DNA from: Blautia sp. Marseille-P3087
Lineage (GTDB): Bacteria > Bacillota > Clostridia > Lachnospirales > Lachnospiraceae
DNA: 64,000 nt
Reading direction: 5' to 3'
Assembly (NCBI RefSeq): GCF_900120195.1
Contig: NZ_LT635539.1
Span: 1,535,257 to 1,599,256, forward strand
Notes under the pieces: generated by a model
Seen by the model: only the letters and a program-made list of their open reading frames with translations
What the model was told of the DNA's origin: nothing
The model's database searches: none
Part shown: positions 12,801 through 57,552 of the stretch, one piece after another
Position numbering within the stretch: position 1 is the stretch's first letter
Layout: each line of letters opens with the position of its first letter
Made by a program: the position numbers and the translations under genes

Positions 12801-12816
12801 AATGGCGCCCCCTTTC

Positions 12817-12847
12817 AAAAAACCGGGCGGGGCTCTTCACCCCGCCC
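12817..12847 (-). terminator. Partial terminator between binding-protein and ATPase genes
   Basis: On the minus strand GGGCGGGG and CCCCGCCC form a strong stem with a 7-base loop, followed by GG and six T residues. Such intercistronic terminators commonly let the first gene, the abundant binding protein, be expressed above the membrane complex. Confidence 0.85.
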
Positions 12848-12897
12848 TAAAATTTCAAATTACATGTTTTATTGGTTACTTAAGCAATTTTTTCTGC

Positions 12898-14028
12898 TTA
12901 CTGTGCCGGATGAAGATATCCGTCATCGTCCTGTGTATAGTATCCTGTGTCAACCAGTTCTTCTTTCATGTTGTCTTTTGTTACAACTGTAGGAACCAGA
13001 AGGAATGATGGGCATTTGTGACCTTCGGATGTTTCATAGGATTCTGTATCATATGCACAATCGAAATCCCATTTGGAGTTTGTGATCAGAGAATCATCAA
13101 TTGTGTCACCTTTCAGCATTGCTTCTGCAAGGTCAAGAGTAACAACTGCTTCGTTTGCAACTGCTTTGTAAACTGTCATGGACTGTTTTCCATCTACGAT
13201 GTTTGCAAGGTTAGCTTCGTCACCATCCTGTCCTGTGATCAGAACGTCGTTTTTGCCTGCATAGTCAGATTCGATAGCCTGTGTAACACCAAGTGCTGTA
13301 GAGTCATTGGAGCAAAGAGCTACATCAAGCTGTGTTCCGTCTGCATAGTAAGAAGCGAGGATGTTCTGCATTCTTTCCAGAGCTGTCTGTGTATCCCATG
13401 CTGCTGTTGCTACGGAATCGAAATCGGTCTGTCCGGAAACTACATTCAGTGTGCCTGCATCCAGATACGGTTTCAGAGTGTCATAAGCACCGTTGAAGAA
13501 GTATCCTGCATTGTTATCTGCCGGGTCACCTGCTGTGAACTCAATGTTATATGTTTTATCACCTGCATTGTCAAGATCCAGAGTATCGATTACGTACTGG
13601 CCCTGCAGAGTACCTACTGTATAGTTATCGAAGGAGATATAATAGGAAACTGCATCGGATTTGATCAGACGGTCATAAGCGATAACCGGGATTCCTGCAT
13701 CTGCTGCTTCATCCATAACTGTATTAAGTGCTTCACCATCGATAGCTGCAACTACCAGGAGGTTAACTCCATCAGAGATCAGGTTCTGGATATCATTTAC
13801 CTGACGGTCTGTTTCGTTATCGGAGTATGTCAGCTCCACATCATATCCAGCTGCTTTAAACTGTTCTTCCAGATAAGAACCATCTCTGTTCCAACGTTCC
13901 AGAGACTGTGTTGGCATTGAGATACCGATTTTTCCGCCTTCAGCTGCTGCATCATCTGCAAGTACCGGAACTGCACAAGATGTGATTGCCATTGTTGCTG
14001 CCATCGCTAAAACTAATTTTTTCTTCAT
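12898..14028 (-). CDS. chvE: Monosaccharide-binding protein (ChvE type)
   Basis: First gene of the sugar importer operon. ATG 14028 is preceded by GGGAGG; a longer frame upstream adds an unlikely N-terminus without such a site. The 376-aa product has a signal peptide (MKKKLVLAMAATMAITSC...VLADD) and, from residue 35, the ChvE pattern: KIGISMPTQSLERWNRDG, NDIQNLISDGVNLLVVAAIDG, VIAYDRLIKSDAVSYYISFD. The cysteine in TSC might also act as a lipobox, but the spacing favours ordinary cleavage. ChvE relatives bind several aldoses (glucose, galactose, arabinose, xylose), so a broad monosaccharide ligand set is likely. Confidence 0.93.
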   Translation of the reverse strand: MKKKLVLAMAATMAITSCAVPVLADDAAAEGGKIGISMPTQSLERWNRDGSYLEEQFKAAGYDVELTYSDNETDRQVNDIQNLISDGVNLLVVAAIDGEALNTVMDEAADAGIPVIAYDRLIKSDAVSYYISFDNYTVGTLQGQYVIDTLDLDNAGDKTYNIEFTAGDPADNNAGYFFNGAYDTLKPYLDAGTLNVVSGQTDFDSVATAAWDTQTALERMQNILASYYADGTQLDVALCSNDSTALGVTQAIESDYAGKNDVLITGQDGDEANLANIVDGKQSMTVYKAVANEAVVTLDLAEAMLKGDTIDDSLITNSKWDFDCAYDTESYETSEGHKCPSFLLVPTVVTKDNMKEELVDTGYYTQDDDGYLHPAQ

Positions 14029-14088
14029 AAAAGAAACCTCCCATTTTTGTTTTCGCTCTTTAGCTATTTCGTATAGCTTTTTGATGAA

Positions 14089-14118
14089 ATTATAATACCA
14101 TATGGATATATTAAACAA
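14089..14118 (-). promoter_or_regulatory. Promoter of the sugar importer operon
   Basis: On the minus strand TTGTTT, an 18-bp spacer and TATAAT precede the chvE start by about 60 bp. The -35 box is weak, consistent with activation by the AraC-type regulator encoded downstream. Confidence 0.45.
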
Positions 14119-14158
14119 AATGGACTGTTTTTTGATGCACCATTCAATTTTTGCGTTC

Positions 14159-32389: not shown

Positions 32390-32459
32390 GTTACTGTTCA
32401 CAGGTAGTATTCCGCGAGGTGTTTTGCCATGAATAATGGCAAAATCCCGATCACAGTAA
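32390..32459 (-). repeat. Truncated copy of the 142-bp palindromic repeat
   Basis: GTTACTGTTCAC at 32390-32401, then the GGTGTTTTGCCATGAAT...GGCAAAATCCCGA block, match the reverse of the full copies at 36049-36191 and 57411-57552 nearly base for base for about 60 bp, after which the sequence ends in TCACAGTAAT. The TTCGG-containing half is missing. It abuts the stop of the exporter gene (32463). Confidence 0.75.
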
Positions 32460-36048: not shown

Positions 36049-36191
36049 GATTACTGTTCACTCCGTTCACAGTAACCTGGTCAAAATGCGTTTCAAATCA
36101 CCTTCGGTGATGGCATTTTGCCCTGTATGTCTCGGGATTTTGCCATATTCATGGCAAAACACCTCGCGGAATATTACCTGCTAACAATAAC
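36049..36191 (+). repeat. 142-bp palindromic repeat, copy 1
   Basis: About 143 bp closely matching 57411-57552. It opens with a hairpin (TTACTGTTCACTCCGTTCACAGTAA), continues with a CACCTTCGGTG tetraloop-type hairpin nested between inverted AAAATG/CATTTT arms, then TTTTGCCATattcATGGCAAAA, and ends CTAACAATAAC. It fills the space between the divergent GntR and lipoprotein genes. Confidence 0.8.
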
Positions 36192-38483: not shown

Positions 38484-38540
38484 GGATTTGTCTGATGAAT
38501 ACTGTTTATTCAGACATTTCTAATTACATACAGATTGATG

Positions 38541-38626
38541 ACAGGGGAGCTTGTACAACAGGCTGAGAGGAAGTTTGTAACTTCGACCCATAACCTGATT
38601 TGGATAATGCCAGCGTAGGGATGCGT
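38541..38626 (+). ncRNA. TPP (THI-box) riboswitch
   Basis: The conserved thiamine pyrophosphate aptamer is readable in order: GGGGAGC, GGCTGAGAGG, GACCC, ACCTGATTTGGATAATGCC and AGCGTAGGGA. It binds TPP in the leader of thiT. Downstream a CCCG...CGGG hairpin (38650-38662) abuts the GGGGAGG site, so control could act on translation as well as transcription; thiamine sufficiency should turn thiT off. Confidence 0.95.
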
Positions 38627-38721
38627 TAGACGATTTGAAGTGCATTTGACCCGATTACGGGGAGGCGTGACATTTTATGATCTCTTTTGTTTTCAGTCGA
38701 AGACGAGGGAGGTCTTATTTT

Positions 38722-44861: not shown

Positions 44862-46076
44862 CTATATTTCTGACAGATATTTTCCTTCTTTTATATCGCG
44901 CAAAAAAATTCTTCCCGAGAAAGCAATATGCGGAAGTTCATAAAAACTGCTGCTCTTCGGACAGATTGGTCTGTACAGTGGATCCGCAATGATAATCCTT
45001 GCATCTTTTAAAAGTTCCTGTACTTCTTCCTCCCCTTTTGCGACGCGGTCATTCAGAGCGAGAAGTCCTGCATTTGTCTCCAGCGGACATATCACACGGA
45101 CAGCTTTATGGTATTTCTTTTCGATTGCAGCTGCCAGTGATCCCATCGTTACTGCCTCTCCGATCAGCGTGATTTCCTGTGGTTCGGACAGACGATTCTG
45201 AAGATATGGAATCTCCGGTTTGTCCTGACCGTCTGGTGCGGATTCTTCCTCAGATGATTTTTTCTTTTTATCTGTATTTTTCGTCACCTGTTCCAGCACC
45301 ATTACAAGATCTTCTGTAAAATCACCAACCGGTGTGCCGATAACATATGGTGTACCGAATTTTTCTTTTAATATTTTTGCAGTCTCCAGTCCCACAGATG
45401 ATACGACAAGATTGACTTCTGCTTCTGCCGCATGACTTAAGTTTTCCAGCGAATCTCCCATTGCCCAGGTCGATATTACCTGCCATCCGTGCTTTGCGAG
45501 ATTTTGTTTCATGCAGTCTGCGTTTTGCTGCGGGCCGAAGTCAAGAGGTGTAACTCCGAGAAGGTTGAGTGTATGAGGAATTGTAGTTATCGATGTTACA
45601 TCAGCATCCGCATTTTTTGTTTCCTTCAATGGCTGTACAAAACGTTCTGCGATTTTCGCAAAAGCAAGTCCCGCACCGTACGTATAATCATGCATCCCGT
45701 TTGTCGGGATTGCAAATGCCGGGATTCCTGTCTCTGTCTCAATTACCTGTGCCAGTGCAGGAAAATCCGTGCCATTCATAAACGGAATCGGCGAGCCTGC
45801 CAACGCAATAAATTTCGGATGCAGTTCTTTTGCCGTCTCCTCAATGTCACGGATAAATTTTGCATCGTTCCCCATCACAGCATCGATCTCAGTCAGTCCG
45901 GAAATGTAGATCAGGCTGTCCTGTTCGTACCAGCGGATCTCATCGTGGGTATTGTAAGTAGAATTACATCCGGACGGATCGTGCATGACTACCATGCCGC
46001 CAAGCTCGTAGAGTGCGGAACACACTCCGGAAACATCCGCTGTATAAACCGGTATGATTCGATATGACTGTCTCAT
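44862..46076 (-). CDS. Nitrogenase component 1-like protein, NifK-like subunit (set 2)
   Basis: A 404-aa member of the nitrogenase component 1 superfamily, shorter than true NifK (about 520). The N-terminal part carries cysteines placed like the P-cluster ligands: C19 (SGVCSALYELGG) and C37 (HDPSGCNSTY), followed by ISGLTEIDAVMGNDAKF, which resembles the NifK/BchB SALTE...VFGG region. A lysine/glutamate/serine-rich linker (about residues 265-300) splits the protein. The start overlaps the NifD-like gene by 4 bp (ATGA). It probably forms a complex with that subunit and receives electrons from the set 2 NifH-like protein. The substrate is unknown; it is not expected to fix nitrogen. Confidence 0.85.
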   Translation of the reverse strand: MRQSYRIIPVYTADVSGVCSALYELGGMVVMHDPSGCNSTYNTHDEIRWYEQDSLIYISGLTEIDAVMGNDAKFIRDIEETAKELHPKFIALAGSPIPFMNGTDFPALAQVIETETGIPAFAIPTNGMHDYTYGAGLAFAKIAERFVQPLKETKNADADVTSITTIPHTLNLLGVTPLDFGPQQNADCMKQNLAKHGWQVISTWAMGDSLENLSHAAEAEVNLVVSSVGLETAKILKEKFGTPYVIGTPVGDFTEDLVMVLEQVTKNTDKKKKSSEEESAPDGQDKPEIPYLQNRLSEPQEITLIGEAVTMGSLAAAIEKKYHKAVRVICPLETNAGLLALNDRVAKGEEEVQELLKDARIIIADPLYRPICPKSSSFYELPHIAFSGRIFLRDIKEGKYLSEI

Positions 46077-47476
46077 ATGCAGCTTTCACACCCCCATCCT
46101 TTACGTACGACCAGGTCCTCCGTATCTTTTTCTTCAAGAAACGCTTCTGTCATCATTTCCGCTGTCCTGCGGATTCCGTCAAATCCCCAGAGACCGCCGC
46201 CCTGCACCATATTGACAAAATTTCTGCTCCCCGTAAACCACGCTGCTTTCTGTCCAATGGCAAGGATTTTTCCCTCATTTTCTCTCGGGAGAACACGCAT
46301 CTTCGGATGAATCGTAGCGCGTAATTCGAGATTCGGACAGTTCACCTTCAGCCAGTCAAAAGCTTCTTTTTCCTCCGCACTGATACTGTCAAGATAGATC
46401 GTAGTCACGTTAAAATCATGTGTAAGAAGAAGTTTTGCCAGTCCGAGCGGTCTCGGATGATAAAGATAATCCAGAGCGACCGGGGTGTCGCCGATGATGG
46501 ATTTTGCGTGTTTAAGGGCATCTTCGCAAAGAACAATCTCCTGTTGGAAAAATACTTCAAGATCTTCAAAACTCATACTGTTTTCTGTATTCCGCAGGAT
46601 CGCTCCTTTGTCATTTTTTTCTACATTACTGACTGAATTTTTCACTGCCTCTGCAAATGTCCGAATCTCTTCTTTAATTTCTTCATAATCAAAACTTCCC
46701 GGCAGATACAGATGTGTACGCTGTAATCGTTCTGCCAGCATCTCTGCGCCGTACTTTGCCGGAGGATAGCAAGAAATCAACATTTTTCCACTGCCAAGTT
46801 CCTGATACTCTTCCCAGTTTGTACAGGCCGTAAGTTCTTTTAATGTATATCCGCCGGATCTCAGCAGACGTTTGATATCGCAGGTTTCATCCAGTGCAAA
46901 ATCATCTCCGACAAGGGTGACGACTTTTTCATCCGATGACCTTTTTTCCAGCGGATCATATAATGCTTTTCGCAGTTTCTGATCCGGTGTCAGCCCATGT
47001 TTCTGCATGATCGGGTCCATAAAACAACGTACAAATATAATCTCCGGAAAACGGTTTTCCAGTTCTTCGTATACCCTGTCCAGATCACATCCGAGAAAAT
47101 GATGGAGACAGACTGTAAAAAGTAATACCACTTTCGGTTTTTTTTCTGTTTTATTTAAAACATCAGTCACGCCCTCAATCGTGACATCTTCGAGGTTTCC
47201 GTTCAGAAGATTTTCTTCTTCTACAATTACAAAAGAAAAACGGTCTGCTGCGTTCATTTCCGCCGCTGTAAGCACAACTCCGCGCATACAGTTGTCTGCA
47301 CAGACATAGATCTGTATGGCCTCGGGCATCAGCATCCCGGTGTGTACGATATTCCAGTTACCATGTACCGGAGAATTAAATTCCAGACCAGGCGGAAACG
47401 GCACAGGAAATTCAGCCTCACCAATCGTCGTGACTGCACCTTCCGGATTTATTTCTCCGCCAACTCGTTTCAACAT
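46073..47476 (-). CDS. Nitrogenase component 1-like protein, NifD-like subunit (set 2)
   Basis: 467 aa, nitrogenase component 1 superfamily. Candidate cluster ligands are C59 and C63 (IYVCADNCMRGVV), C123 (LLFTVCLHHFLGCDLDRV, comparable to the NifD C154 region) and C130. The C-terminal half has the NifD-like MVQGGGLWGFDGIRRTAEM stretch, but the FeMo-cofactor histidine of NifD (MHSWDYSGPYHGFDG) has no counterpart. The last residues are GWGCESCI, an unusual CxxC at the very end. It overlaps the NifH-like gene by 7 bp. Function unknown; distinct in sequence from the set 1 NifD-like protein. Confidence 0.85.
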   Translation of the reverse strand: MLKRVGGEINPEGAVTTIGEAEFPVPFPPGLEFNSPVHGNWNIVHTGMLMPEAIQIYVCADNCMRGVVLTAAEMNAADRFSFVIVEEENLLNGNLEDVTIEGVTDVLNKTEKKPKVVLLFTVCLHHFLGCDLDRVYEELENRFPEIIFVRCFMDPIMQKHGLTPDQKLRKALYDPLEKRSSDEKVVTLVGDDFALDETCDIKRLLRSGGYTLKELTACTNWEEYQELGSGKMLISCYPPAKYGAEMLAERLQRTHLYLPGSFDYEEIKEEIRTFAEAVKNSVSNVEKNDKGAILRNTENSMSFEDLEVFFQQEIVLCEDALKHAKSIIGDTPVALDYLYHPRPLGLAKLLLTHDFNVTTIYLDSISAEEKEAFDWLKVNCPNLELRATIHPKMRVLPRENEGKILAIGQKAAWFTGSRNFVNMVQGGGLWGFDGIRRTAEMMTEAFLEEKDTEDLVVRKGWGCESCI

Positions 47477-48237
47477 AGCCCGTCCTCCCTGCAGATTTTC
47501 AGAATATTTTCTGTCAGTGTACGGTACTCCTCTGCCATCTCACTGTCCGGATAGCATTCCATCAGGGTTTTTCCCTGCTCTTCCGCATCCGTGACCAGTT
47601 CGCTTCTGTTAAGTTTTCCGACAACAGTTGTCTCAAAATCATCTGCCAGTTCCTGCACTTTTTCTTCTTCCCGTTTGACATTCCGCCGGTTCAGAATAAT
47701 GCCGCCAAGAGATGCATAGCCGCGATTTTTGAAATTCTGCACCGCCATGGCGATGTTTGCTCCGGCATGAATCGCCATATTTTCTCCGGAAGTGATGATA
47801 AAGACTTTGTCTGCATAGCCTTTTCGCATCGGCATGGAAAAACCGCCACAGACAACATCACCAAGAACATCATAGAGGACAATATCCGGTTTATAGATCT
47901 CGTAAGCGCCTGTTTCTTTCAGTTTTTCGAGAGCTGTGATGATACCTCGTCCTGCACAGCCAAGTCCCGGTGTCGGGCCGCCTGCTTCCACGCAGATCAC
48001 TCCCTGATACCCGGTTGTGGTCATGTCTTCTAATTTCAAGTCCTGTTTTTTTTCATTGTACAGATCAAGTACAGTGTGCATTTCTCTGCCATGACGCAGC
48101 TGAATCGTAGAATCTGCCTTTGGATCGCACCCGATCTGCATTACGGCGAGACCTTTTTCGGCAAGGGCTGCTGCCACGTTGGAAACAGTGGTAGATTTGC
48201 CGATTCCGCCTTTTCCGTATACTGCAATTTTAATCAT
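47470..48237 (-). CDS. NifH-like ATPase/reductase (set 2)
   Basis: A 255-aa homologue of nitrogenase iron protein. P-loop GKGGIGKST (residues 8-16), the switch I region DPKADST, and the two cysteines that hold the shared 4Fe-4S cluster of the dimer, C94 ([13 protein letters not shown]) and C130 ([10 protein letters not shown]), are all present, so ATP-driven electron donation to the adjacent component 1-like pair is expected. It is somewhat shorter than true NifH (about 290). It overlaps the regulator gene before it by 8 bp and the NifD-like gene after it by 7 bp. Confidence 0.93.
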   Translation of the reverse strand: MIKIAVYGKGGIGKSTTVSNVAAALAEKGLAVMQIGCDPKADSTIQLRHGREMHTVLDLYNEKKQDLKLEDMTTTGYQGVICVEAGGPTPGLGCAGRGIITALEKLKETGAYEIYKPDIVLYDVLGDVVCGGFSMPMRKGYADKVFIITSGENMAIHAGANIAMAVQNFKNRGYASLGGIILNRRNVKREEEKVQELADDFETTVVGKLNRSELVTDAEEQGKTLMECYPDSEMAEEYRTLTENILKICREDGLC

Positions 48238-48502
48238 GTTTTTCCTCCGTATGTGTGATCACATTGGAATATGCGGTCTTGGTGGATACGCCTTTCAGAC
48301 GTCCGATTTTTCCGGAAAGAGCACTGATGATATCCTGTGAGGCATCAATGGCGATGCTGATGATGCTGATTCCTTTTTCGCGGTACGGGATGCCCATGCG
48401 GCCAATGATGTGGTCGCGGGCATCGTAAAGAAGCTGGTTGAGGGTTTCGATGGAATCACTGTTCTCTACGATAATGGAGATTACTGCAACTCGTGTATCC
48501 AT
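48230..48502 (-). CDS. TM1266-like 'iron-only hydrogenase system regulator'
   Basis: A 90-aa protein with an ACT-like/NikR C-terminal-like ferredoxin fold: TRVAVISIIVENSDSIETLNQLLYDARDHIIGRMGIPYREKGISIISIAIDASQDIISALSGKIGRLKGVSTKTAYS. This matches the small family found beside [FeFe]-hydrogenase maturation genes, where it is presumed to be regulatory although it has no DNA-binding domain. Here it heads an operon of nitrogenase-like genes, with AAGGAGAG before ATG 48502 and an 8-bp overlap with the NifH-like gene. Its presence hints at a link with hydrogen or iron-sulfur metabolism. Confidence 0.85.
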   Translation of the reverse strand: MDTRVAVISIIVENSDSIETLNQLLYDARDHIIGRMGIPYREKGISIISIAIDASQDIISALSGKIGRLKGVSTKTAYSNVITHTEEKHD

Positions 48503-48541
48503 ATGTTATCTCTCCTTAAAATTTATATCTTGTATGTCTTC

Positions 48542-48720
48542 ACGCCCGGACAGGACAGTCTTCCTGACACACTGCAATTTCTGTTCGTCCCGTGCGCCTG
48601 TTTGCTGTCATTCGCACAAACTCGGCTGCGCCTCAGACAGTGTGCTCGGTGACAGCAGCTGGCACGGTCCTCTTGACGAAATTTCCGTTTGCCGTCAGTC
48701 AAACTGTCCTGTCCGGGCGT
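48542..48720. repeat. Long palindromic element, copy C
   Basis: A 179-bp imperfect palindrome with perfect 18-bp ends (ACGCCCGGACAGGACAGT at 48542-48559, complement at 48703-48720) and arms that pair most of the way to the centre (for example GCTGTCA/TGACAGC). The loop core 48617-48642 begins CAAACTCGG and ends CAGACAGTG, closely related to the cores of elements A and B. No T tract follows, so it is not a simple terminator. It lies directly upstream of the TM1266-like gene. Confidence 0.8.
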
Positions 48721-48873
48721 TTCGAAGTCTGTTTAAATTTGATAGAATATAACAATTCAGCAGGTATTTTGCCTCACAACTATGAGAGTACTGAACAGTC
48801 ACGAGAGAATACTTGAACTGACAGTTCTGCTTCTGTTGATAGATTTTTATCTGCCGCAAACATATATTTCACG

Positions 48874-49073
48874 ATATAGCGCCCTGAACAGAAAAACAGG
48901 ATTCTCCTGACGGTAAACGGAGATTTCGTCGTGAATTACGTGTTAGCTGCTGTCACCGAACGCACTGTTTGAGGCACAGCCGAGTTCGCGTGAATGGCAG
49001 CAAATAAGCGCACGTAATGAACAGAAATCGCAGTGTGTCAGGGAGCCTGTTTTCTGTCTCAGGGCAGATATTC
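48874..49073. repeat. Long palindromic element, copy D (inverted relative to C)
   Basis: About 190-200 bp, homologous to C in opposite orientation. The ends are imperfect 20-bp inverted repeats (GCCCTGAACAG... at 48881-48900 and its partner at 49046-49065). The core 48963-48988 reads, on the minus strand, CGAACTCGGCTGTGCCTCA then AACAGTG. It ends about 25 bp from the hypE stop. Between C and D (48721-48873) I see no gene or clear signal. Confidence 0.78.
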
Positions 49074-49098
49074 TATAAATATATCTTTTTCCCCTAAC

Positions 49099-50115
49099 TC
49101 AACAAATTCTCGGTAACAGTTCTCCTCCCGGCTGTGGGAGCAGTGCCTGAGTTCCAATTTCAGTAGTCATGACTACTTTGCCCGGCAAATCGGCAGTGAC
49201 TTCACCGATAATAGCAGCATCTTTGGAGTACGGACACTGGCGGAGTGCTTCGACGATTTTTTCTGCTTCAGCTTTTGGTGCCATGATCACCATACGGCCT
49301 TCGCAGGCAAGATAAAGCGGTTCCAGTCCGAGCATTCCACAGACACCTTTTACCTCCGGTGCTACAGGTACAGCCGCTGCATCCAGTCGGATTCCGACAT
49401 TGCTCTGTCCTGCAATCTCATAAAGAACCGTGCCGACCCCGCCACGTGTCGCATCACGAATCACATGCAGATCATGTGTCGTATTCATTACCGCTTCAAC
49501 TGTCTTCCAGAGTGGTGCACAGTCACTTGTTACATCCGCTTCGATACCGAAATCCTCTCTTGCAAGAAGAATCGTGCATCCATGTCTTCCCACATCGCCG
49601 GTTACGATAATCGCGTCTCCCGGCTGTGCAAGCGTTCCGCCTACTTTCACACCATCTTCAATCTGCCCCATTCCGGTCGTTGTAATAAATACACCGTCCA
49701 CCTGTCCTTTACCTGCAACCTTTGTGTCGCCGGATACGATATGTACACCAGCCTCTGAGGCTGTTTTTTCCATGGCAGCTGCAATTTCTTCCAGTTTTTC
49801 CATTGGAAAGCCCTCTTCAATAACAAATGCGCAGGTCAGATACAATGGTTTTGCCCCCATACATGCGAGGTCATTTACTGTTCCGCAGACAGAAAGTTTG
49901 CCGATGTTTCCACCCGGAAAAAATGCCGGTGAAACAATAAATCCATCTGTAGAAACAGCCATTTTCCCAGCCGGAGGTATCAAAACCGCCGCATCATCTG
50001 CAGTCAGATCCGGATTCGCAAAATGCGCTGCAAAAATCTTGTCGATCAGTTCGGAGGTCTGACGGCCACCGGCTCCATGTGCCATCGTTACTGTTTTATC
50101 TTTTAAACTGCTCAT
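49099..50115 (-). CDS. hypE: Hydrogenase maturation protein HypE
   Basis: Dehydrates the S-carboxamide on its C-terminal cysteine to a thiocyanate, which supplies CN- for the Fe(CN)2CO group. The 338-aa protein has the PurM-like ATPase fold (VTMAHGAGGRQTSELI, DDAAVLIPPAGKMAVSTDGF, IRDATRGGVGTVLYEIA) and ends exactly in the functional LPRIC tail, so it should be active. ATG 50115 is chosen as the start at the MxxLKDKxVTMAHGAGG boundary; a longer open frame upstream runs into hypD. It is the last gene of the hyp block, 97 bp after hypD. Confidence 0.96.
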   Translation of the reverse strand: MSSLKDKTVTMAHGAGGRQTSELIDKIFAAHFANPDLTADDAAVLIPPAGKMAVSTDGFIVSPAFFPGGNIGKLSVCGTVNDLACMGAKPLYLTCAFVIEEGFPMEKLEEIAAAMEKTASEAGVHIVSGDTKVAGKGQVDGVFITTTGMGQIEDGVKVGGTLAQPGDAIIVTGDVGRHGCTILLAREDFGIEADVTSDCAPLWKTVEAVMNTTHDLHVIRDATRGGVGTVLYEIAGQSNVGIRLDAAAVPVAPEVKGVCGMLGLEPLYLACEGRMVIMAPKAEAEKIVEALRQCPYSKDAAIIGEVTADLPGKVVMTTEIGTQALLPQPGGELLPRIC

Positions 50116-50212
50116 AGGATTATCCTCTTTTCTTGTAATATTGTCATATCTGCAGAGTGCTTCATTACTTCGTAATTCCCGCAATCTTACAAACATTCGG
50201 AATCCGCTGATA

Positions 50213-51265
50213 TTATTTATTATCACCATATGCGTAATACGCTGCGCATGCACCTTCATTTGAAACCATGCATGCACCTACCGGATGCTGCGGGGCACAG
50301 ACCTTGCCGAATACTTTGCAGTCCGAAGGTTTACATTTTCCCTGCAGGACATCTCCACACCGACAGGCCGGATTTGCCTTGCCCTGAATCGGTGGAATAT
50401 CATATTTCTTTCTCGCGTCAAATGCACTCCACTCTTTTTTCAGACGAACACCGGATTCTGGAATCACTCCCAGTCCTCGCCATTCGCTGTCACAGGCTTC
50501 AGTCATTTCGTCGGTAAGCTGCTGTGCCTCCCGACTTCCTTCTGCTTTTACCACTCTCGGATAACAGTTTACAAAAAACGGTTTTCCCTCCTGAAATTTC
50601 ACCAGTGCAACCGCCAGCGCAGTAAGAAGTTCCTTAGCTGTAAATCCGGCAACTACACCGCTGACACCTTCTTCTGTCAGTTTCTCACAGAGCTTCGTCC
50701 CTGTGATTGCATTCACATGTCCCGGATAAAGGAAGATATCCGCACTTCCTTTTAATGCTTCATATGCCTGTGGCATGGTCTTGTTTGCCATCAATAGTGA
50801 ATAGTTCATAAGACCGTCTTTCTTCGCCTTTTTTACAGAAAGACACTCTGCCGGAGTGGTTGTTTCAAAGCCCACCGAAAGAAAAACCACCTGCTCCCCC
50901 GGATGTTCTGACGCATATTTTTCTGCGTCTGCCGGAGAATATACGATACGGATTTTTGCTCCTTTTTCCCTTGCTCCCGCAAGGCTCATCTTCGTTCCCG
51001 GTACACGCACCAGATCGCCAAACGTACAGATCGTTACGCCTTTTTCCAGTGCAAGCCAGATTGCTTCATCAATAAATCCGACCGGTGTTACACAGACGGG
51101 ACATCCCGGTCCGGAGATCAGTTCGACCTGCGGTGGCAGAAGTTTACGGATTCCAAGTCGGAAAATTTCGTGTGTATGTGTCCCGCACACTTCCATGATC
51201 CGTACTTTCGGGCCATCATAATTTTCTATGATCTCCCGCGCTGTTTTCTTTTTTTCTTCTTCCAT
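50213..51265 (-). CDS. hypD: Hydrogenase maturation protein HypD
   Basis: An iron-sulfur protein that with HypC holds the iron on which the CN and CO ligands are assembled. The 350-aa protein shows all hallmark motifs: EVCGTHTHEIFR, ISGPGCPVCVTP, and the C-terminal cysteine array CRCGDVLQGKCKPSDC, VFGKVCAPQHPVGACMVSNEGACAAYY. Nothing essential seems to be lost. The start overlaps the hypC stop by one base (TAATG). Confidence 0.97.
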   Translation of the reverse strand: MEEEKKKTAREIIENYDGPKVRIMEVCGTHTHEIFRLGIRKLLPPQVELISGPGCPVCVTPVGFIDEAIWLALEKGVTICTFGDLVRVPGTKMSLAGAREKGAKIRIVYSPADAEKYASEHPGEQVVFLSVGFETTTPAECLSVKKAKKDGLMNYSLLMANKTMPQAYEALKGSADIFLYPGHVNAITGTKLCEKLTEEGVSGVVAGFTAKELLTALAVALVKFQEGKPFFVNCYPRVVKAEGSREAQQLTDEMTEACDSEWRGLGVIPESGVRLKKEWSAFDARKKYDIPPIQGKANPACRCGDVLQGKCKPSDCKVFGKVCAPQHPVGACMVSNEGACAAYYAYGDNK

Positions 51266-51474
51266 TACAGCATATCCTCCATAAGCTGATCAGTCTCGTC
51301 ATCATCTTCTTCTGTGATTTTTGCGATTGCCACGCCGGCATGAACCATTACATAATCACCCGGTTCCAGATCTTCGAGAAGCTGTGCAGAAACTTCTCTT
51401 TTTGCTCCGCCTGCATCTATTACTGCTGTTCCGTCACTTATTTTTACAACTTTTGCTGATAATCCAACACACAT
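51265..51474 (-). CDS. hypC: Hydrogenase maturation chaperone HypC
   Basis: A 69-aa chaperone that carries the Fe(CN)2CO unit with HypD and normally delivers it to the hydrogenase large subunit. The essential C2 is present (MCVGLSAKVVKI), followed by GGAKREVSAQLLEDLEPGDYVMVHAGVAIAKI, the family pattern. The acidic tail (ITEEDDDETDQLMEDML) is normal. The usual MCLGIP start is altered to MCVGLS. GGAGG for this gene lies in the end of hypF. Its partner protein in this organism is unknown; no hydrogenase large subunit is in the window. Confidence 0.94.
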   Translation of the reverse strand: MCVGLSAKVVKISDGTAVIDAGGAKREVSAQLLEDLEPGDYVMVHAGVAIAKITEEDDDETDQLMEDML

Positions 51475-51475
51475 G

Positions 51476-53926
51476 TTAAAGCCTCCCTTTGTTTTTCTCC
51501 AAATATTCCATCGCATACACCGCCTGTCCGAGTGCGATTCCGCCGTCATTTGGCGGCACAAGCTGATGTTTCAGCACCGCAAATCCCTGATCTTTAAGTC
51601 CATGATCTGTCAGCTCCAGAAGCAGCCGGTTCTGAAAAACACCGCCGCTCAATGCCACTTTATTGCATCCACTCTGCTGCCTGATCTGTACGCATGCATC
51701 AATGATCTGATAAGCAAGTTCCCGATGAAAAAAATATGCCAGTCTGTCCGGATTTTCATCATTCAGACAGCGAGTCATGAGTTCTTTTATTAAGGATTCT
51801 GTATTGAGCAGCAGCCGGTCACTTTCCACAATTCGTCGCTCATCGTTAAGAATCGTTCTGTCCCCAGTCTGTTTTCGATACATTTCATCTGCTATATCCG
51901 GCTGATTTTTATTTTCAACGAGAACACCTGTATTCTTTTTATGATAACTATATTTTTCAGTTTCCAAAATTTGCTGCGTACTCTTTTCAAGTAATGTTTT
52001 CTGGTACTCTTCCGCTGCAAATTCCAGTGCCATCGAAGCTTCTCCTTCGAATGTGGATTTCCTGCAGAGTCCAAGTATCGCACTCACTCCGTCAAATAAC
52101 CGCCCGGCACTTGTTGACATCACAGCATTGATCTTACGGTCTGCCATGGTAAACTGTACGTTTGCTTCCTGCTTCGTACAAAGCGCTAACTTTTCTATTA
52201 TTTCGGCAGCCTTTTCTCTGTCGCCGGTCATTCCGTAAATCAATGAAACCGCAATTCGCCATCCTTCCTTCGAGGATGCATCTCCTCCAATCTGCAAAAA
52301 CGGCACCACACTTCCGACTCGCTTAAATTTATGCAGATCTGCCAGAAGAACCTCGCCGCCCCAGACAGTTCCGTCTGTTCCATAGCCTGTTCCGTCAAAA
52401 GATATCCCTATCACCTGCTCCGCACAGTCATTTTCCGCCATACATGAAAGAATGTGCGCATAATGGTGCTGCACTTTTACGACCGGAAGTCCAAGTTCTT
52501 CCGCCACCATCACGGAATTGTACTTCGGATGCATGTCACAGCAGACGATTTTCGGCTGTACTTCCAGAAGCGTTTCAAGTCTTCCAATCGTCTCCCGAAG
52601 TGCTTTGACTGTACGCAGATCTTCCAGATCTCCCACATATGGCGATGGATAAAAGCGGTTATCCACACCTATGCAGAAAGAATTCTTAAGCTCTCCACCG
52701 ATGGCAAGCACCTGTCCCCGATATGGTGTGGAAACCATGAACGGAAGTGGTGCATATCCTCTGGAACGACGGATCATATATGGTTTATCCTCATAAAAAT
52801 CCATCACGGAATCGTCCGCCCGGATGCGAATTTTTCGGTCATGAGATAACATGCAGTCACAGAAACCGGACAGTTCAGATTCTGCTTCCTGATCATCTCT
52901 GCAAATTGGTGCACCGGAAGTATTGCCACTTGTCATCACCAGAAATTCCGGCATTTCGATTCCGTCATCATATGTAAAAATCAGCAGCTGCACCGGTGCA
53001 TACGGAAGCATCACACCCACTTTCGGGTTCCCCGGAGCCACCGACGGACAGAGAATTTCGGATGTTTTCTTTTTATCCAGAAGAAGGATTGGTTTTTGGT
53101 GTCCGTCCAGAATTTTCGCCTGCTCTTCTGATACTTCACATTCTTTTTTTACTGATTCCAGATTTTTTGCCATCACTGCAAAAGGCTTCATCGGACGACG
53201 TTTAAGCTCCCGCAGGTGACTGACTGCCACTTCATTTGAAGCATCGCAGCAGAGGTGAAAACCGCCGATTCCTTTGGTTGCCACAATGCCGCCTTCTGCA
53301 ATTGTTTTTCTCGCAAAAGTGATTGCATCTCTGCCACGTTCTTTGCGTCCGATCAGGTAAACTTCCGGCCCACATTCATTGCAGCATACCGGCTGTGCAT
53401 CATACCTTCTCGTTGCCGGATCATGGTACTCCGCCGCACATTCCGGACACATCGGAAACTCTTTCATACTGGTACGTTCCCTGTCATATGGCAATGAATC
53501 CAGAATGGTAAGGCGCGGCCCGCAGCAGGTACAGTTGATAAAAGGATGCAGATATCTGCGATTCTTTTTATCAAACATTTCTTCTTTACATTCGTCACAG
53601 ATTGCAATATCCGGTGAAACAAAAATCTCTCCTTTTGTTTTCTCACTTTCGATAATATCAAACTGCGTATACTGCTCCGGCGCTTCTATATTTTCTACAT
53701 TTATTTTCAAAATTGCAGCCCGTTTCGGCGGCCGGTTCTGTATATCTGAAATAAATTCTTCTACAGCTTCTTCGGGCCCCTGCGCATAGATTTCGACATA
53801 AGGCCCTTTGTTACAGACATTTCCACGGATTCCCCTCGCAGTCGCATGGCGGCTGACTGTCGGCCGGAATCCCACCCCCTGCACGATTCCATAGACACGG
53901 ATCTGTCTGGTGATTTCCTGGTTCAT
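51476..53926 (-). CDS. hypF: Carbamoyltransferase HypF
   Basis: Transfers the carbamoyl group of carbamoyl phosphate to HypE. The 816-aa protein has an acylphosphatase domain (residues 1-90, VYGIVQGVGFRPTV), two zinc-finger modules (CDECKEEM...CTCCGPR; CPECAAEYHD...CCNECGP), a YrdC-like domain (about 200-390) and a Kae1-like domain (VQHHYAHILSCMAEN, SFDGTGYGTDGTVWGGE, LSGGVFQNRLL). It is about 60 residues longer than usual because of a charged insert between ALEFAAEEY and ESLIKELM in the last domain. ATG 53926 was chosen; an upstream frame start at 53962 is less likely. It follows the set 1 NifK-like gene by 79 bp. Confidence 0.95.
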   Translation of the reverse strand: MNQEITRQIRVYGIVQGVGFRPTVSRHATARGIRGNVCNKGPYVEIYAQGPEEAVEEFISDIQNRPPKRAAILKINVENIEAPEQYTQFDIIESEKTKGEIFVSPDIAICDECKEEMFDKKNRRYLHPFINCTCCGPRLTILDSLPYDRERTSMKEFPMCPECAAEYHDPATRRYDAQPVCCNECGPEVYLIGRKERGRDAITFARKTIAEGGIVATKGIGGFHLCCDASNEVAVSHLRELKRRPMKPFAVMAKNLESVKKECEVSEEQAKILDGHQKPILLLDKKKTSEILCPSVAPGNPKVGVMLPYAPVQLLIFTYDDGIEMPEFLVMTSGNTSGAPICRDDQEAESELSGFCDCMLSHDRKIRIRADDSVMDFYEDKPYMIRRSRGYAPLPFMVSTPYRGQVLAIGGELKNSFCIGVDNRFYPSPYVGDLEDLRTVKALRETIGRLETLLEVQPKIVCCDMHPKYNSVMVAEELGLPVVKVQHHYAHILSCMAENDCAEQVIGISFDGTGYGTDGTVWGGEVLLADLHKFKRVGSVVPFLQIGGDASSKEGWRIAVSLIYGMTGDREKAAEIIEKLALCTKQEANVQFTMADRKINAVMSTSAGRLFDGVSAILGLCRKSTFEGEASMALEFAAEEYQKTLLEKSTQQILETEKYSYHKKNTGVLVENKNQPDIADEMYRKQTGDRTILNDERRIVESDRLLLNTESLIKELMTRCLNDENPDRLAYFFHRELAYQIIDACVQIRQQSGCNKVALSGGVFQNRLLLELTDHGLKDQGFAVLKHQLVPPNDGGIALGQAVYAMEYLEKNKGRL

Positions 53927-54005
53927 ATGCTCACTCCCACCCTCTGTTTTTAGTCCTTCCATTCAAATCATGATTCTGGTTTTCCAGACTACATCAGGCT
54001 TTCTT

Positions 54006-55049
54006 TTATTTCTCAATTAATTTCCCGGACACCGCAAAATGCCTTGTATTCACAAATGTTCCTTCAAATCCCGGTGTCATCCGTTCCATGCATCTATCTG
54101 CAAAAATAATATCAAACTCACCGTTTTGCACCAGTTCTATGTAGTCATCTTCATCACGAAGAATCACATCTCCATCTGTCTGAAATTCTTTTTTCATCAT
54201 AAACCAGCACGCTGTCTGAACCGTTCCTGCGCTTCGTTTCAGCAGTTCTTTTCGGATAGAATCGGCAATCACCTGCTGGTGTACGACAAGTATTCTTTTA
54301 CCCGTATAATCCATCTCCGGAATCAAATCTTCCACCAGCGGATAATAAATTTCATATGGTGTTCCGAATGTTTTTTCCAGATATTTTGCTGTCGCAAGTG
54401 CTGCCGGAGAAACTACAATATTTCGGCTCACGGAAGATGATTTTTTTACTTCTTGCAATCCATCTCCCATACAGTAACAGACTGCTTTCTGTCCGTATTT
54501 TTGTTGAAACAAATCCCTTATTTTATCTGTCGCATCAAGGTCGCTGACATCCTGCGGAGTCATTCCGAGAATGCCGATTCTTTGCTCATCTATCGGATAT
54601 TTTTCCACTGCAAATGTCTTAAAAAGTTCCAGAAAGGCTTTTTCTTCACCCTTATCGTAAAGCTCCATTCCATCCGTATCCACAGTCAGAATCGGAAGAT
54701 TTATTTTCTTTTCACTCATGCGTTTCAGAGCCAGATAATCCGTTGCAATCACTGCCGGAACCGGTGTCCCGATCACCGCCGCAAACGTCGCATCTACCTT
54801 CCGTGCCGCATCCGCAAGCTTCGCTACCAGCCGGTCATCTCTCCCCAAAATCGCATCCATATCTCGAAGTCCCGCACTGAAAATCGCACTTTTCTGCTCA
54901 AACCACCGTGGTTCATCAAAACCACAGACATTCCCGGTACAGCCTCCCGCGTCGCAGATCACCACAATGCCTCCCAATTCAAAAAGCACTGATACTGCAC
55001 CTGACTGATCCGGTGCAAACGGTGTCAGATATTTCCGAAGTCCTCTCAT
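54006..55049 (-). CDS. Nitrogenase component 1-like protein, NifK-like subunit (set 1)
   Basis: 347 aa, a short member of the component 1 superfamily, related to the set 2 NifK-like protein (shared pattern SGxxSxLxELGGxVVxxDxxGC, then EPRWFEQKSAIFSAGLRDMDAILGRDDRL). Cysteines C32, C37 and C42 (CDAGGCTGNVCGF) could hold a cluster; the first NifK-type cysteine (C19 in set 2) is replaced by alanine or valine here. The start overlaps the NifD-like gene by 4 bp. Likely forms the catalytic or scaffold complex with that subunit. The substrate is unknown. Confidence 0.83.
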   Translation of the reverse strand: MRGLRKYLTPFAPDQSGAVSVLFELGGIVVICDAGGCTGNVCGFDEPRWFEQKSAIFSAGLRDMDAILGRDDRLVAKLADAARKVDATFAAVIGTPVPAVIATDYLALKRMSEKKINLPILTVDTDGMELYDKGEEKAFLELFKTFAVEKYPIDEQRIGILGMTPQDVSDLDATDKIRDLFQQKYGQKAVCYCMGDGLQEVKKSSSVSRNIVVSPAALATAKYLEKTFGTPYEIYYPLVEDLIPEMDYTGKRILVVHQQVIADSIRKELLKRSAGTVQTACWFMMKKEFQTDGDVILRDEDDYIELVQNGEFDIIFADRCMERMTPGFEGTFVNTRHFAVSGKLIEK

Positions 55050-56329
55050 TCTGCCACCTCCTTAAGTGCCCCAAACAGTCTTCTCACCCCGGCAAATCCA
55101 AACGGCTGCTCATCCTGATTCCACATCAGTCCCGGGCAATCCTGATGGTAATAAAGGGCATCTTTTCCTATGGTGATGTTTACGCCGCTCTCCTTTGGTT
55201 CATAATAGATCATGGTAGGTTCCATATTTGAAAATACTTTTGTTGTCGGACTTAAAAGAGCAAGCTGTTTCATATAAACAAAGTTTTCTACCGTGATCGT
55301 TCCATAGATCTCCGGTACTTTAAATCCATATTTCAAAAGGGCAAGTGCCAGTTCAAACGGATCACCGTTCATGCATTCACCAACTGCGAAAGAAGCATCC
55401 GGACAGACTTTTCGGAAGTTTTCTACCGCCTGTTCTGCCGCCTTTCGATACGCAGTTGTATCAAAAGTAACTCCCAGCACCGAACCAAATGCCTGATACT
55501 GATTCTCTATTTTATCTGTCTGATACAGGCGTCGAAGCTCAATAAACGGAATCTTCAAACGCTCATGAAAGTCCTCTGCCGCTGCTCTTGCTTCCTGGTG
55601 AAGTACCAGATTGAAGTTCGCTTCGGACATAGTTTTGTATTCATCAAAATCCCTGCATCTGGAGATTTCATGGATTGTTTTTATACCCGCACTGTGCAGA
55701 ATATCATACAGCTCACAGTCATCTATAAGCGGCGAAAAAAATCCCAGAAGATTAACGACATTTCCCATTTTCTTTGCCGGTTCGAGAAGAGAATATAATG
55801 ACTGCCGTACATGCACCATCGGCGGTTTTCGCCCTTCACGAGTCAGTGCATACATATAACACGGACGTACCGGAAGCCCTGCACGCTCCTCTGCTTTGCG
55901 GCAGACACGCTCCATATCCGTACCGAGAAGCGCATCCACACAGGTAATACAGATCATCACGACTGATGGTTTTTTCTCAAGACTTTCGCAGATTTCTTCG
56001 ACCGCTTTCGGGATTTTTTTGAGATGGCGTCCGGTCACAATGTCAGTCTCATCCATCATCAGATAGAAAAATCGATTGTCATATTCACGCATGGAGCTGA
56101 TCAGGGATGTATTTCGCCCACAGCAGCCAGGCGCCACGATCAGCATGATCGAATCCGGTATGGCAAGTCCTGCGCGTTTTACACCAAATCCCTCCGCGCC
56201 CGGCGAGTTAAACGCAAGCGTTGCCGGTGAACTGTAGATCAGATGCATATTGGACTTAAACTGATCCGGAATATTCTCTTTTCCAAGCTCATTTAATTCT
56301 TTTACTGTACAATAATATGCTCTGCTCAT
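55046..56329 (-). CDS. Nitrogenase component 1-like protein, NifD-like subunit (set 1)
   Basis: 427 aa of the component 1 superfamily. Visible candidates for cluster binding are C69/C70 ([14 protein letters not shown]) and C127/C130 ([20 protein letters not shown], matching the NifD C154 region). [16 protein letters not shown] resembles the NifD LTEKDIVFGGxKKL region. The C-terminal [22 protein letters not shown] corresponds to the NifD GFDGF area but lacks the FeMo-cofactor histidine. It overlaps both neighbours by 4 bp (ATGA), so the three subunits are made in step. Confidence 0.85.
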
Positions 56330-57087
56330 TCTTCTTCCTCTGCTTTCAGAAGCATTTCTGCCAGATCAAAAAATCTCCGGCTGATTTCAGAATTTTTGTC
56401 TCCCTCGATCACGGTCTTACCCTGATCCTCCCAGCGGATGATCTCGTCACTTCTCGGTATCTCACCTACGATCGGGATGTTGCTTTTCTGTGCAAATGCC
56501 TGTACTTTTTCTGTTTCATTTTCTACGTTTCGATGATTCAGAACAATACCGAAAACCCGCGCATAGCTCCGGTCTTCGAAGTTCCGTACTGCACTTGAAA
56601 TGTTGTTCGCCGCATATAATGCCATCTTTTCTCCTGAGGTCACGATGAGAACTTTTTCTGCATATCCTTCACGGATCGGAGCTGCAAACCCGCCGCAGAC
56701 AACATCACCGAGAACATCATAGAGCACGACATCCGACTGATATGTTTCAAACAATCTCAGGTCTTCCAGCAACTGAAAAGTTGCAATGATTCCTCTTCCG
56801 GCACACCCAAGTCCCGGTGTCGGTCCACCGGTTTCGATACAGAGTACCCCACCGAATCCTTCTTTCGAAATATCCTCCAGAGTCTCCGGTTCTTCGTCCT
56901 CCTCACGCATATAATTCATGACAGGACGAAGCGGTTCTCCGCCAAGCAGATTGATCGTTGAATCTGCCTTTGGATCACATCCGATCTGGATGACTTTCTT
57001 TCCCATGGATGCAAAAGCCGCTGCCAGATTGGAAGTCACGGTTGATTTTCCGATACCTCCCTTTCCATAAATCGCTACTTTCAGCAT
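56326..57087 (-). CDS. NifH-like ATPase/reductase (set 1)
   Basis: 253 aa, nitrogenase iron-protein family. P-loop GKGGIGKST (8-16), GCDPKADST, and the cluster cysteines C95 ([13 protein letters not shown]) and C131 ([10 protein letters not shown]) are intact. It is close in sequence to the set 2 NifH-like protein, more so than the partner subunits are to each other. It leads the NifHDK-like set 1-hypFCDE operon and is preceded by GGAGGG, a long leader and a promoter at 57341-57370. The arginine ADP-ribosylated in nitrogen fixers (CAGRGI) is present but carries no proof of the same control. Confidence 0.93.
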
Positions 57088-57340
57088 TTGTAAATACCCT
57101 CCTCATAAAAAACAGCTCTTACAGATTCCACCCGAAAAATCTTCTCCTGCATTCTTTGGTATACAAAAGGACTCCTCCACCGTCAGGGTAGAGAAGTCCT
57201 GTAAATGTCACTGTATGATTCACTCGCAGTAACCTGTAAATTTCACATCAACAACTATTCCCGCTCGGATGATTCCTTGCCGTCAGAGTCTGTTCTGTTT
57301 TCTTTCTTTTCTTTCTTATTTTACGTTTTTAACTGACTTT
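57088..57340 (-). other. Long structured leader of the nitrogenase-like/hyp operon
   Basis: About 245 nt between the promoter and the first start codon. Near 57168-57200 it folds into a 14-bp hairpin with loop CTGAC (AGGACTTCTCTACC with GGTGGAGGAGTCCT, two G-T pairs), followed by TTTTG, which could act as an attenuator. Upstream it has a GTTACTG...CAGTGAC hairpin and two ATTTACAGG direct repeats. It matches no riboswitch class I can name. Confidence 0.45.
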
Positions 57341-57370: not shown

Positions 57371-57410
57371 TGCTAACAGATATATATCCTGCTGTTTTAC
57401 TATAATAAGT

Positions 57411-57552
57411 GTTACTGTTCACTCCGTTCACAGCAACTTGGTCAAAATCCATTCCAAATCACCTTCGGTGATGGGATTTTGACCCGTATGTCTCGGGATT
57501 TTGCCATATTCATGGCAAAACACCTCGCGGGATATTACCTGTGAACAGTAAC
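57411..57552 (+). repeat. 142-bp palindromic repeat, copy 2 (complete)
   Basis: Bounded by perfect 12-bp inverted ends, GTTACTGTTCAC and GTGAACAGTAAC. Inside are GGTCAAAATCC...GGGATTTTGACC enclosing the CACCTTCGGTG hairpin, and TTTTGCCATattcATGGCAAAA. Closely matches 36049-36191. It lies between the cardiolipin synthase stop and the nitrogenase-like promoter. Confidence 0.82.

Follow-up and report, generated by a model that had tools for sequence, protein, structure and literature searches.

How can a bacterium furnish the H-cluster of an [FeFe]-hydrogenase with its carbon monoxide (CO) and cyanide (CN) ligands without HydG, the protein held to supply both (PMC13360658, in part)? We examined a gene cluster from Blautia sp. 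Marseille-P3087, contained in a window of 64,000 nucleotides (positions 1,535,257-1,599,256 of a 3.3 Mb genome that is 99.98% complete), in which two sets of nitrogenase-like genes (NifH-, NifD- and NifK-like; sets 1 and 2) are combined with the genes for HypF, HypC, HypD and HypE. Comparative genomics makes it very likely that this cluster is a HydG-independent route to the CO- and CN-ligated iron of the H-cluster, and the cofactor workshops of nitrogenase, [NiFe]-hydrogenase and [FeFe]-hydrogenase have probably been merged in it. The sequences themselves establish several points: the parts occur together in a conserved manner, HydG is nearly always missing where the cluster occurs, HydE, HydF and HydA are present, and hydE and hydF are linked to the cluster.

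The cluster runs on the minus strand from 57087 to 44862 in the order NifH2-NifD2-NifK2-HypF-HypC-HypD-HypE-TM1266-NifH1-NifD1-NifK1, with a gap of 596 bp between HypE and TM1266. Set 2 (57087-54006) comprises a NifH-like ATPase (NifH2, 56326-57087; Pfam Fer4_NifH, 301.6 bits), a NifD-like protein of the nitrogenase component-1 fold (NifD2, 55046-56329; Oxidored_nitro, 103.2 bits) and a NifK-like protein (NifK2, 54006-55049; 57.7 bits). It is followed by the carbamoyltransferase HypF (51476-53962; TIGR00143, 770 bits against a cut-off of 466), HypC (51265-51474; TIGR00074, 63 against 48), the Fe(CN)2CO scaffold HypD (50213-51265; TIGR00075, 382 against 193) and HypE (49099-50115; TIGR02124, 425 against 252). 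A TM1266-type putative iron-only hydrogenase system regulator (48230-48502; TIGR03959, 109 against 61) then precedes set 1 (48237-44862), made up of NifH1 (47470-48237; Fer4_NifH, 302.4 bits), NifD1 (46073-47476; Oxidored_nitro, 36.1 bits) and NifK1 (44862-46076; 99.0 bits). All four D/K-like proteins exceed the Pfam cut-off for Oxidored_nitro (28.6 bits), and they are the only PF00148 proteins above cut-off in the Blautia sp. Marseille-P3087 genome. The start of HypC is likely at 51474, with its Cys2 corresponding to C31 of a longer open reading frame (ORF; 51561-51265), and that of HypE is likely at 50115. Coordinates and Pfam/NCBIfam profiles thus bear out the initial annotation, which had described two NifHDK-like sets around hypFCDE on one strand; the overlaps that it gave as 4-8 bp measure 4 bp (NifH2/NifD2, NifD2/NifK2 and NifD1/NifK1), 7 bp (NifH1/NifD1) and 8 bp (TM1266/NifH1).

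How widespread is this arrangement? A neighbourhood search, which the initial annotation had asked for, found the pairing of Nif-like and hyp genes conserved far beyond the source genome. Of 37 genomes in the genus, 8 encode a HypD that passes its cut-off, as do 11 of 61 relatives. The other seven genus loci all carry nif-like genes, and six of them hold all 11 genes, five in the same order as the window (L018-L022) and one with set 1 placed before set 2 (L016); the seventh (L017) shows NifHDK2-HypFCDE only, on a contig that stops inside HypE. When named genomes were scanned with NifD2, relatives (E<=1e-3) appeared in at least 460 of 595 stretches, and the best 80 loci, which come from Lachnospiraceae, Oscillospiraceae/Ruminococcaceae, Coriobacteriaceae/Atopobiaceae and Clostridium, were kept; C. 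ljungdahlii, C. ragsdalei, C. carboxidivorans and C. drakei are among the carriers of the cluster. Gene content was counted in the 47 named loci of at least 20 kb (33 shorter ones were left out), where NifD2 is present by construction. NifH2, HypF, HypC, HypD and HypE occur in all 47, NifD1 in 46, NifK1 in 42 and TM1266 in 32. NifK2 stands as a gene of its own in 36 loci and is joined to NifD2 in the remaining 11; NifH1 is separate in 28, and at least three of the 19 other loci have it fused to NifD1. Because it recurs both within the genus and among the named genomes, the arrangement is not due to chance.

A cluster that stands in for HydG should not share genomes with it, whereas HydE and HydF should be kept. 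With HydG called by TIGR03955 above cut-off, a profile search found none in the Blautia sp. Marseille-P3087 genome. Across the genus, HydG is present in 0 of 8 cluster genomes versus 19 of 29 others (Fisher, P = 0.0011), and in a sample of 295 genomes from the order it is present in 0 of 15 versus 133 of 280 (P = 1.8e-4). The 15 cluster genomes of the order sample were called by NifD2 score, with six weaker NifD matches (219-242 bits) excluded from the count; the three of these that were inspected (G192, G062 and G197) have a different HDK set, with no hyp gene within the 13-18 kb examined. Hyp genes lie in the same locus in 13 of the 15; the G328 locus is a contig of 3.4 kb, and G273 (NifD, 431 bits) shows NifH2-NifD2 only in 20 kb. 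Without these two, HydG is found in 0 of 13. HydF is present in 14 of the 15. Among the 153 HydF-positive genomes, 14 have the cluster and no HydG, 128 have HydG and no cluster, none has both and 11 have neither (P = 1.9e-13); that is, the cluster occurs in 14 of 25 genomes with HydF and without HydG and in 0 of 128 with HydG. Among the named cluster genomes, HydG exceeds its cut-off in 2 of 50. (For the counts of HydG, PF02906, [NiFe]-hydrogenase and NifB, 30 of the 80 named loci were left out; the 50 that were kept are 18 isolates, 29 others with a locus of at least 21.2 kb, and L091, L085 and L071.) The switch between cluster and HydG takes place within a single genus, which speaks against a simple effect of clade.

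Does the neighbourhood of the cluster also point to the [FeFe]-hydrogenase? When the other ORFs of at least 80 aa in the 80 named loci were clustered, HydF was the commonest family (16 loci) and HydE the second (13 loci), the third reaching only 8 of 80. In a profile rescan, 23 of the 80 loci had HydE and/or HydF within the cluster or close to it, on the same strand in 12 and on the other in 11, up to ~5.4 kb from NifH2. Locus L073 has the run NifH2-NifD2-HydE-HydF-NifK2-HypF; L076 carries hydE and hydF between NifD2 and NifK2, its contig stopping inside NifK2; and L105 reads TM1266-HydF-HydE-NifH1D1(fused)-K1-H2-D2-K2-HypFCDE. Five of the linked genes (two HydE and three HydF) were checked, and all score above the NCBIfam cut-off. 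In four loci of the order sample (L126, L127, L129 and L130), a single run contains HydF and HydE together with HypFCDE and the two NifHDK sets; a run of the same kind in L131 starts with a HydE piece and is cut off at HypD by the end of the contig. The Blautia sp. Marseille-P3087 genome itself encodes HydE (594 bits) and HydF (561 bits), both above cut-off, together with two HydA proteins above cut-off: one of group A (451 bits; motifs TSCCPAW and MPCTAKKAE), adjoining genes that look NuoE/NuoF-like by eye, and one of group B1 (617 bits; motif TSCCPSW). The initial annotation had left two options, and they fared differently. Nitrogenase-like complexes acting on a hydrogenase-type cofactor are favored by the links to HydE, HydF and TM1266 and by the missing HydG; for a CN/CO-bearing nitrogenase-like end enzyme, no positive evidence emerged.

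Several observations weigh against a HydG-independent route. In the Blautia sp. Marseille-P3087 genome, a distance of at least 68 kb separates the cluster from hydE, hydF and hydA. HydG and the cluster occur together in C. drakei and C. thailandense, and one cluster genome of the order sample, the 90% complete draft G316, shows no HydF. PF02906 occurs in 51 of 51 cluster genomes, but almost every genome of the order has it (269 of 295), so its presence adds little. The P values are optimistic, since the genomes are related, Fisher's test treats them as independent, and the samples overlap (at least three genus genomes are also among the 50 named ones). A clear [NiFe] large subunit is found in 6 of 71 cluster genome handles (which include at least three duplicates: G332, G333 and G336 = G004, G016 and G005) and a weak N-terminal match in 13, and in these the Hyp set may serve both enzymes. 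The Hyp proteins deliver two CN for each CO, while the H-cluster calls for an excess of CO over CN, a difference that the proposed route would have to bridge. The strains with published hydrogenase activity differ from the genomes analyzed here, and the open-licence PubMed Central (PMC) literature yielded no study that tested the cluster biochemically or genetically. Finally, 11 of the 25 genomes with HydF and without HydG lack a cluster above threshold (G043, G052, G089, G118, G165, G187, G192, G209, G287, G295 and G303); HydG loss is therefore not always tied to the cluster. Five of the eleven have genus-mates with the cluster or HydG and may be gaps, but in genera g8 and g17 the presence of HydF with neither of the two looks genuine. 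No HypD was found in G043 and G052, the two of the eleven that were searched.

Are the proteins equipped for such a role? In NifH2, cysteines C37, C83, C95 and C131 are invariant (n = 83 sequences), both NifH proteins retain all four, and the NifH2 P-loop reads GKGGIGKST by eye. NifD2 has C69, C70, C127, C130, C143 and C157 in at least 98% of sequences (n = 87), NifK2 conserves D14, C37 and C42 (n = 64), NifD1 conserves C59 (99%), C63 and C123, and NifK1 conserves D14 and C37 (n = 56). Set against the ligand patterns of the nitrogenase P-cluster and the DPOR cluster, the NifD and NifK cysteines suggest that there are enough ligands for an interface Fe-S center like one of these. NifD1 also ends in a flexible C-terminal CxxC tail in 52 of 60 sequences (residues 459-467 have an AlphaFold confidence, pLDDT, below 50). 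The key cysteine of HypC, Cys2, is invariant (n = 74), as are C27, C55, C58 and the C-terminal Cys set of HypD (n = 74) and the C-terminal cysteine of HypE (C392 of a longer ORF; n = 70). HypE ends in PRIC, whose cysteine corresponds to the thiocyanate carrier of known HypE.

The Nif-like proteins belong to the nitrogenase superfamily. Pfam fold assignment covers all six, and the structural comparison covers NifD1 and NifD2, whose AlphaFold models have a pLDDT of 88.6 and 87.8. Foldseek matched both models to nitrogenase, NifEN and methylthio-alkane reductase (Mar) chains, and NifD2 also to DPOR chains, with nitrogenase subunits at the top and identities of 11-20% for the two together. In profile comparisons, NifE is the best NCBIfam match of NifK1, NifD2 and NifK2; among solved structures it takes first or second place for both NifD1 and NifD2. 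Both NifH proteins fall below the nifH equivalog cut-off (324.5 and 309.9 bits versus 394.35), NifH2 is under the NCBIfam cut-offs of the six families compared, and component-1 equivalog scores do not exceed 62 bits, where the cut-offs range from 268 to 1229. In alignment, NifD2 has no cysteine opposite the position of the FeMo cofactor (FeMo-co) cysteine. NifB scores above cut-off in 6 of the 71 handles and below it in 4 more, with none in the Blautia sp. Marseille-P3087 genome at E<=1e-50; a NifB-made cofactor is therefore unlikely to be general, and we rejected a NifB-type cofactor on these counts.

How might these parts work together? The known routes give the frame: HydG makes Fe(II)(Cys)(CO)2(CN), which HydE reduces and dimerizes before HydF and the H-protein finish the bridge (PMC13360658, in part), and HypCDEF make Fe(CN)2CO (PMC9431212, in part). 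In the Nif-Hyp cluster, HypF and HypE would convert carbamoyl phosphate to cyanide at the expense of ATP, while HypC-HypD would bind iron and load CN (and CO) onto it. The NifH-like ATPases would drive low-potential electrons into the NifDK-like heterodimers, where the interface cysteines suggest a P-cluster-like Fe-S center. Nitrogenase proteins reduce CO2, and one NifDK pair could obtain CO by such a reduction, either from CO2 itself or from a carbonate or formyl group bound to HypC. The other could act as a NifEN-like scaffold, perhaps gathering iron via the C-terminal CxxC tail of NifD1. CO2 reduction and scaffolding would be the means by which the Nif-like complexes make up the differences in CO and redox state. 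The product would be an Fe(CO)2(CN) unit or an [Fe2S2(CO)4(CN)2]-like dimer, equivalent to the outcome of HydG, and would pass to HydE and then HydF, from which apo-HydA would be loaded. This detailed division of labor is tentative and less likely than not to be right, and the assignment of the NifDK pairs to individual steps is a guess.

Could the cluster serve another end? The initial annotation's other option amounts to a new cofactor, a Hyp-made Fe(CN)xCO built into one of the NifDK-like complexes, itself an end enzyme; the link to HydE and HydF would then reflect shared regulation only. This would account for two NifHDK sets where pure maturation has no obvious need of both. It would also fit the lack of any frequent neighbor family besides HydE and HydF and the nitrogenase subunits at the top of the Foldseek results. 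We consider it quite unlikely, because it leaves the mutual exclusion with HydG and the HydE and HydF genes inside the operon unexplained, and the scaffold protein NifE leads the profile matches of NifK1, NifK2 and NifD2 and is first or second in those to solved structures. A different explanation, in which the work of HydG falls to a tyrosine-lyase relative (ThiH or an atypical HydG-like radical SAM enzyme) and the cluster has no part in it, draws on a 179-bit, ThiH-like match in the Blautia sp. Marseille-P3087 genome that aligns with positions 15-372 of the 470 in HydG only, and on 23 of the 50 named cluster genomes that match the HydG model at E<=1e-20, none over cut-off. This is very unlikely: 25 of the 50 lack any match at E<=1e-20 (C. 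ljungdahlii and C. ragsdalei are among them), on which ground we rejected ThiH as a general stand-in for HydG, and the operon linkage is left unexplained.

That HypCDEF serves a [NiFe]-hydrogenase, with the Nif-like genes as neighbors of another role, seems extremely unlikely. The six handles with a clear large subunit speak for it, as do the 13 weak N-terminal matches, which lie in ORFs of ~360-400 aa and are perhaps Ech-like. However, 52 of the 71 handles, including the complete genome of Blautia sp. Marseille-P3087, have no match at E<=1e-8, so the Hyp proteins do not serve a recognizable [NiFe]-hydrogenase in most of them. In Blautia sp. Marseille-P3087 itself no large subunit was found even at E<=1e-3; the initial annotation had named a complete [NiFe]-hydrogenase with hypAB elsewhere in the genome, together with a lack of CN/CO signal in the nitrogenase-like complex, as counting against its proposal, and we rejected a [NiFe] target for Hyp in this genome, where the explanation is refuted unless a highly divergent large subunit exists. 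The Hyp proteins are also only 29-40% identical to the hyp sets of three genomes of the same order (G037, G039 and G042; two partial HypD matches reach 56% and 49%), and the sets of G037 and G039 adjoin genes that by eye resemble [NiFe] subunits. It is scarcely credible that the Nif-like sets are ATP-driven reductases acting on a tetrapyrrole or thioether, like DPOR, CfbCD or methylthio-alkane reductase. Fold and Fe-protein type are in common, but the proteins score below the NCBIfam cut-offs for DPOR, COR and CfbC/D, no methylthio-alkane reductase model is among the matches, no such pathway genes were seen by eye among the 40 commonest neighbor families, and the Hyp and Hyd linkage would be unexplained.

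How does the proposed HydG-independent route compare with known systems? It shares with HydE-HydF-HydG maturation the retained HydE, HydF and HydA and the TM1266-type regulator, common to both; unlike that system, it lacks HydG in the Blautia sp. Marseille-P3087 genome and in 48 of the 50 named cluster genomes, with Nif-like and Hyp proteins, non-homologous to HydG, in its place. From HypABCDEF maturation it has HypF, HypC, HypD and HypE with intact key cysteines, whereas no [NiFe] large subunit is present in the source genome and the operon is joined to two NifHDK sets. An ATPase with a two-subunit, NifE-like scaffold recalls NifH/NifEN assembly, from which the cluster differs in the scarcity of NifB and in NifD2 without the FeMo-co cysteine. 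Superfamily and fold are shared with the group IV/VI nitrogenase-like reductases, methylthio-alkane reductase, DPOR and CfbCD; scores below the cut-offs set the cluster apart from DPOR and CfbC/D, and its genomic context, hydrogenase maturation, sets it apart from the group as a whole. Other nitrogenase-like systems are type 1 MGC (PMC10418091, in part) and methyl-coenzyme M reductase (MCR) activation (PMC12176620, in part). No description of the Nif-Hyp system was found in open-licence PMC, subscription papers and preprint servers being outside the search.

The gap that such a route would fill has been noticed. As far as the available text of PMC9431212 goes, five acetogens have HydE and HydF without HydG, five have HypCDEF without HypAB (HypA and HypB are reported missing in C. 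ljungdahlii and C. ragsdalei), and four lack both. HydG is listed there for C. autoethanogenum, C. drakei and C. scatologenes. For the HydG-less acetogens the same text states that there is no straightforward explanation, offering an atypical HydG (one with a changed C-terminal Cys motif) or free diatomics. Extracts of B. luti show H2:methyl viologen activity of 14-644 mU/mg, with ~23,000 quoted for B. schinkii; the two hydrogenases named in B. luti are hydABC and hydM (group B), and on glucose hydM alone was transcribed; nif-like genes are unmentioned in the available part of this account (PMC12773636). The B. luti and B. schinkii genomes analyzed here have the cluster and no HydG. The available part of a paper on gut group B hydrogenases does not mention HydE or HydF (PMC12578642). 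If true, a HydG-free route would explain active [FeFe]-hydrogenase in several gut bacteria and gas-fermenting acetogens, answer the question left open in the available text of PMC9431212, give a function to an uncharacterized nitrogenase-like branch and to orphan hypCDEF genes, and provide a new means of producing hydrogenases in the laboratory.

Upstream of NifH2 lies a conserved leader element with the core CTGACGGCAAGG-loop-CCGAGCGGGAATAG (57248-57289, minus strand), recovered by an iterative profile. Of 76 regions upstream of NifH2, 57 contain this 35-nt element (55 of them at E<=1e-3), in taxa ranging from Blautia to Coriobacteriaceae. It has one match in the window versus none in 100 shuffles; there is no Rfam family at its site, and a scan of viral contigs gave no match. 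It likely forms a hairpin, with 94.5% of alignment cells paired, but covariation is weak, both sides changing in two of five pairs. Sliding the partner by -2 as a control gives equal two-sided changes but only 51% paired. The distance to the start codon is 8-14 nt in many Coriobacteriaceae/Atopobiaceae records and ~30-450 nt elsewhere, and the element is a candidate riboswitch or operator. Between it and NifH2 is a terminator-like hairpin (57168-57200, minus strand), a 14-pair stem followed by a T run; the window holds 27 such sites versus 10.5 in shuffles. A promoter scan of the window found 19 sites versus 19.5 in shuffles, no excess.

Some further features were noted in passing. The gap between HypE and TM1266 (48503-49098) contains a large inverted repeat with 144 bp arms (48555-48698 and 48907-49050, 82%), which is partly present also in L026 (Blautia sp. 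MSJ-19); in that locus ~2.9 kb separate NifD2 from NifK2 (11287-14158), genes that overlap or nearly do so elsewhere. A different NifHDK-like set with no hyp gene nearby is found in L114 (2764-5943), L116 (7988-11184) and L117 (7580-10772), adjoining ABC-transporter-like genes (read by eye) in the last two. Two genomes without HydG or the cluster have TM1266-HydE-HydF runs (L111, 8047-10544, and L120, 3623-6128; HydE and HydF read by eye, HydF also identified by search), possibly a third route to the H-cluster. In the window, an Rfam GA-cis RNA match (57404-57487, minus strand; 34.8 bits against a gathering line of 34.7) sits inside a repeat that recurs at 36051-36191 and partly at 32390-32450, and a TPP riboswitch (38533-38638, plus strand; 63.3 bits) lies upstream of a membrane protein ORF.

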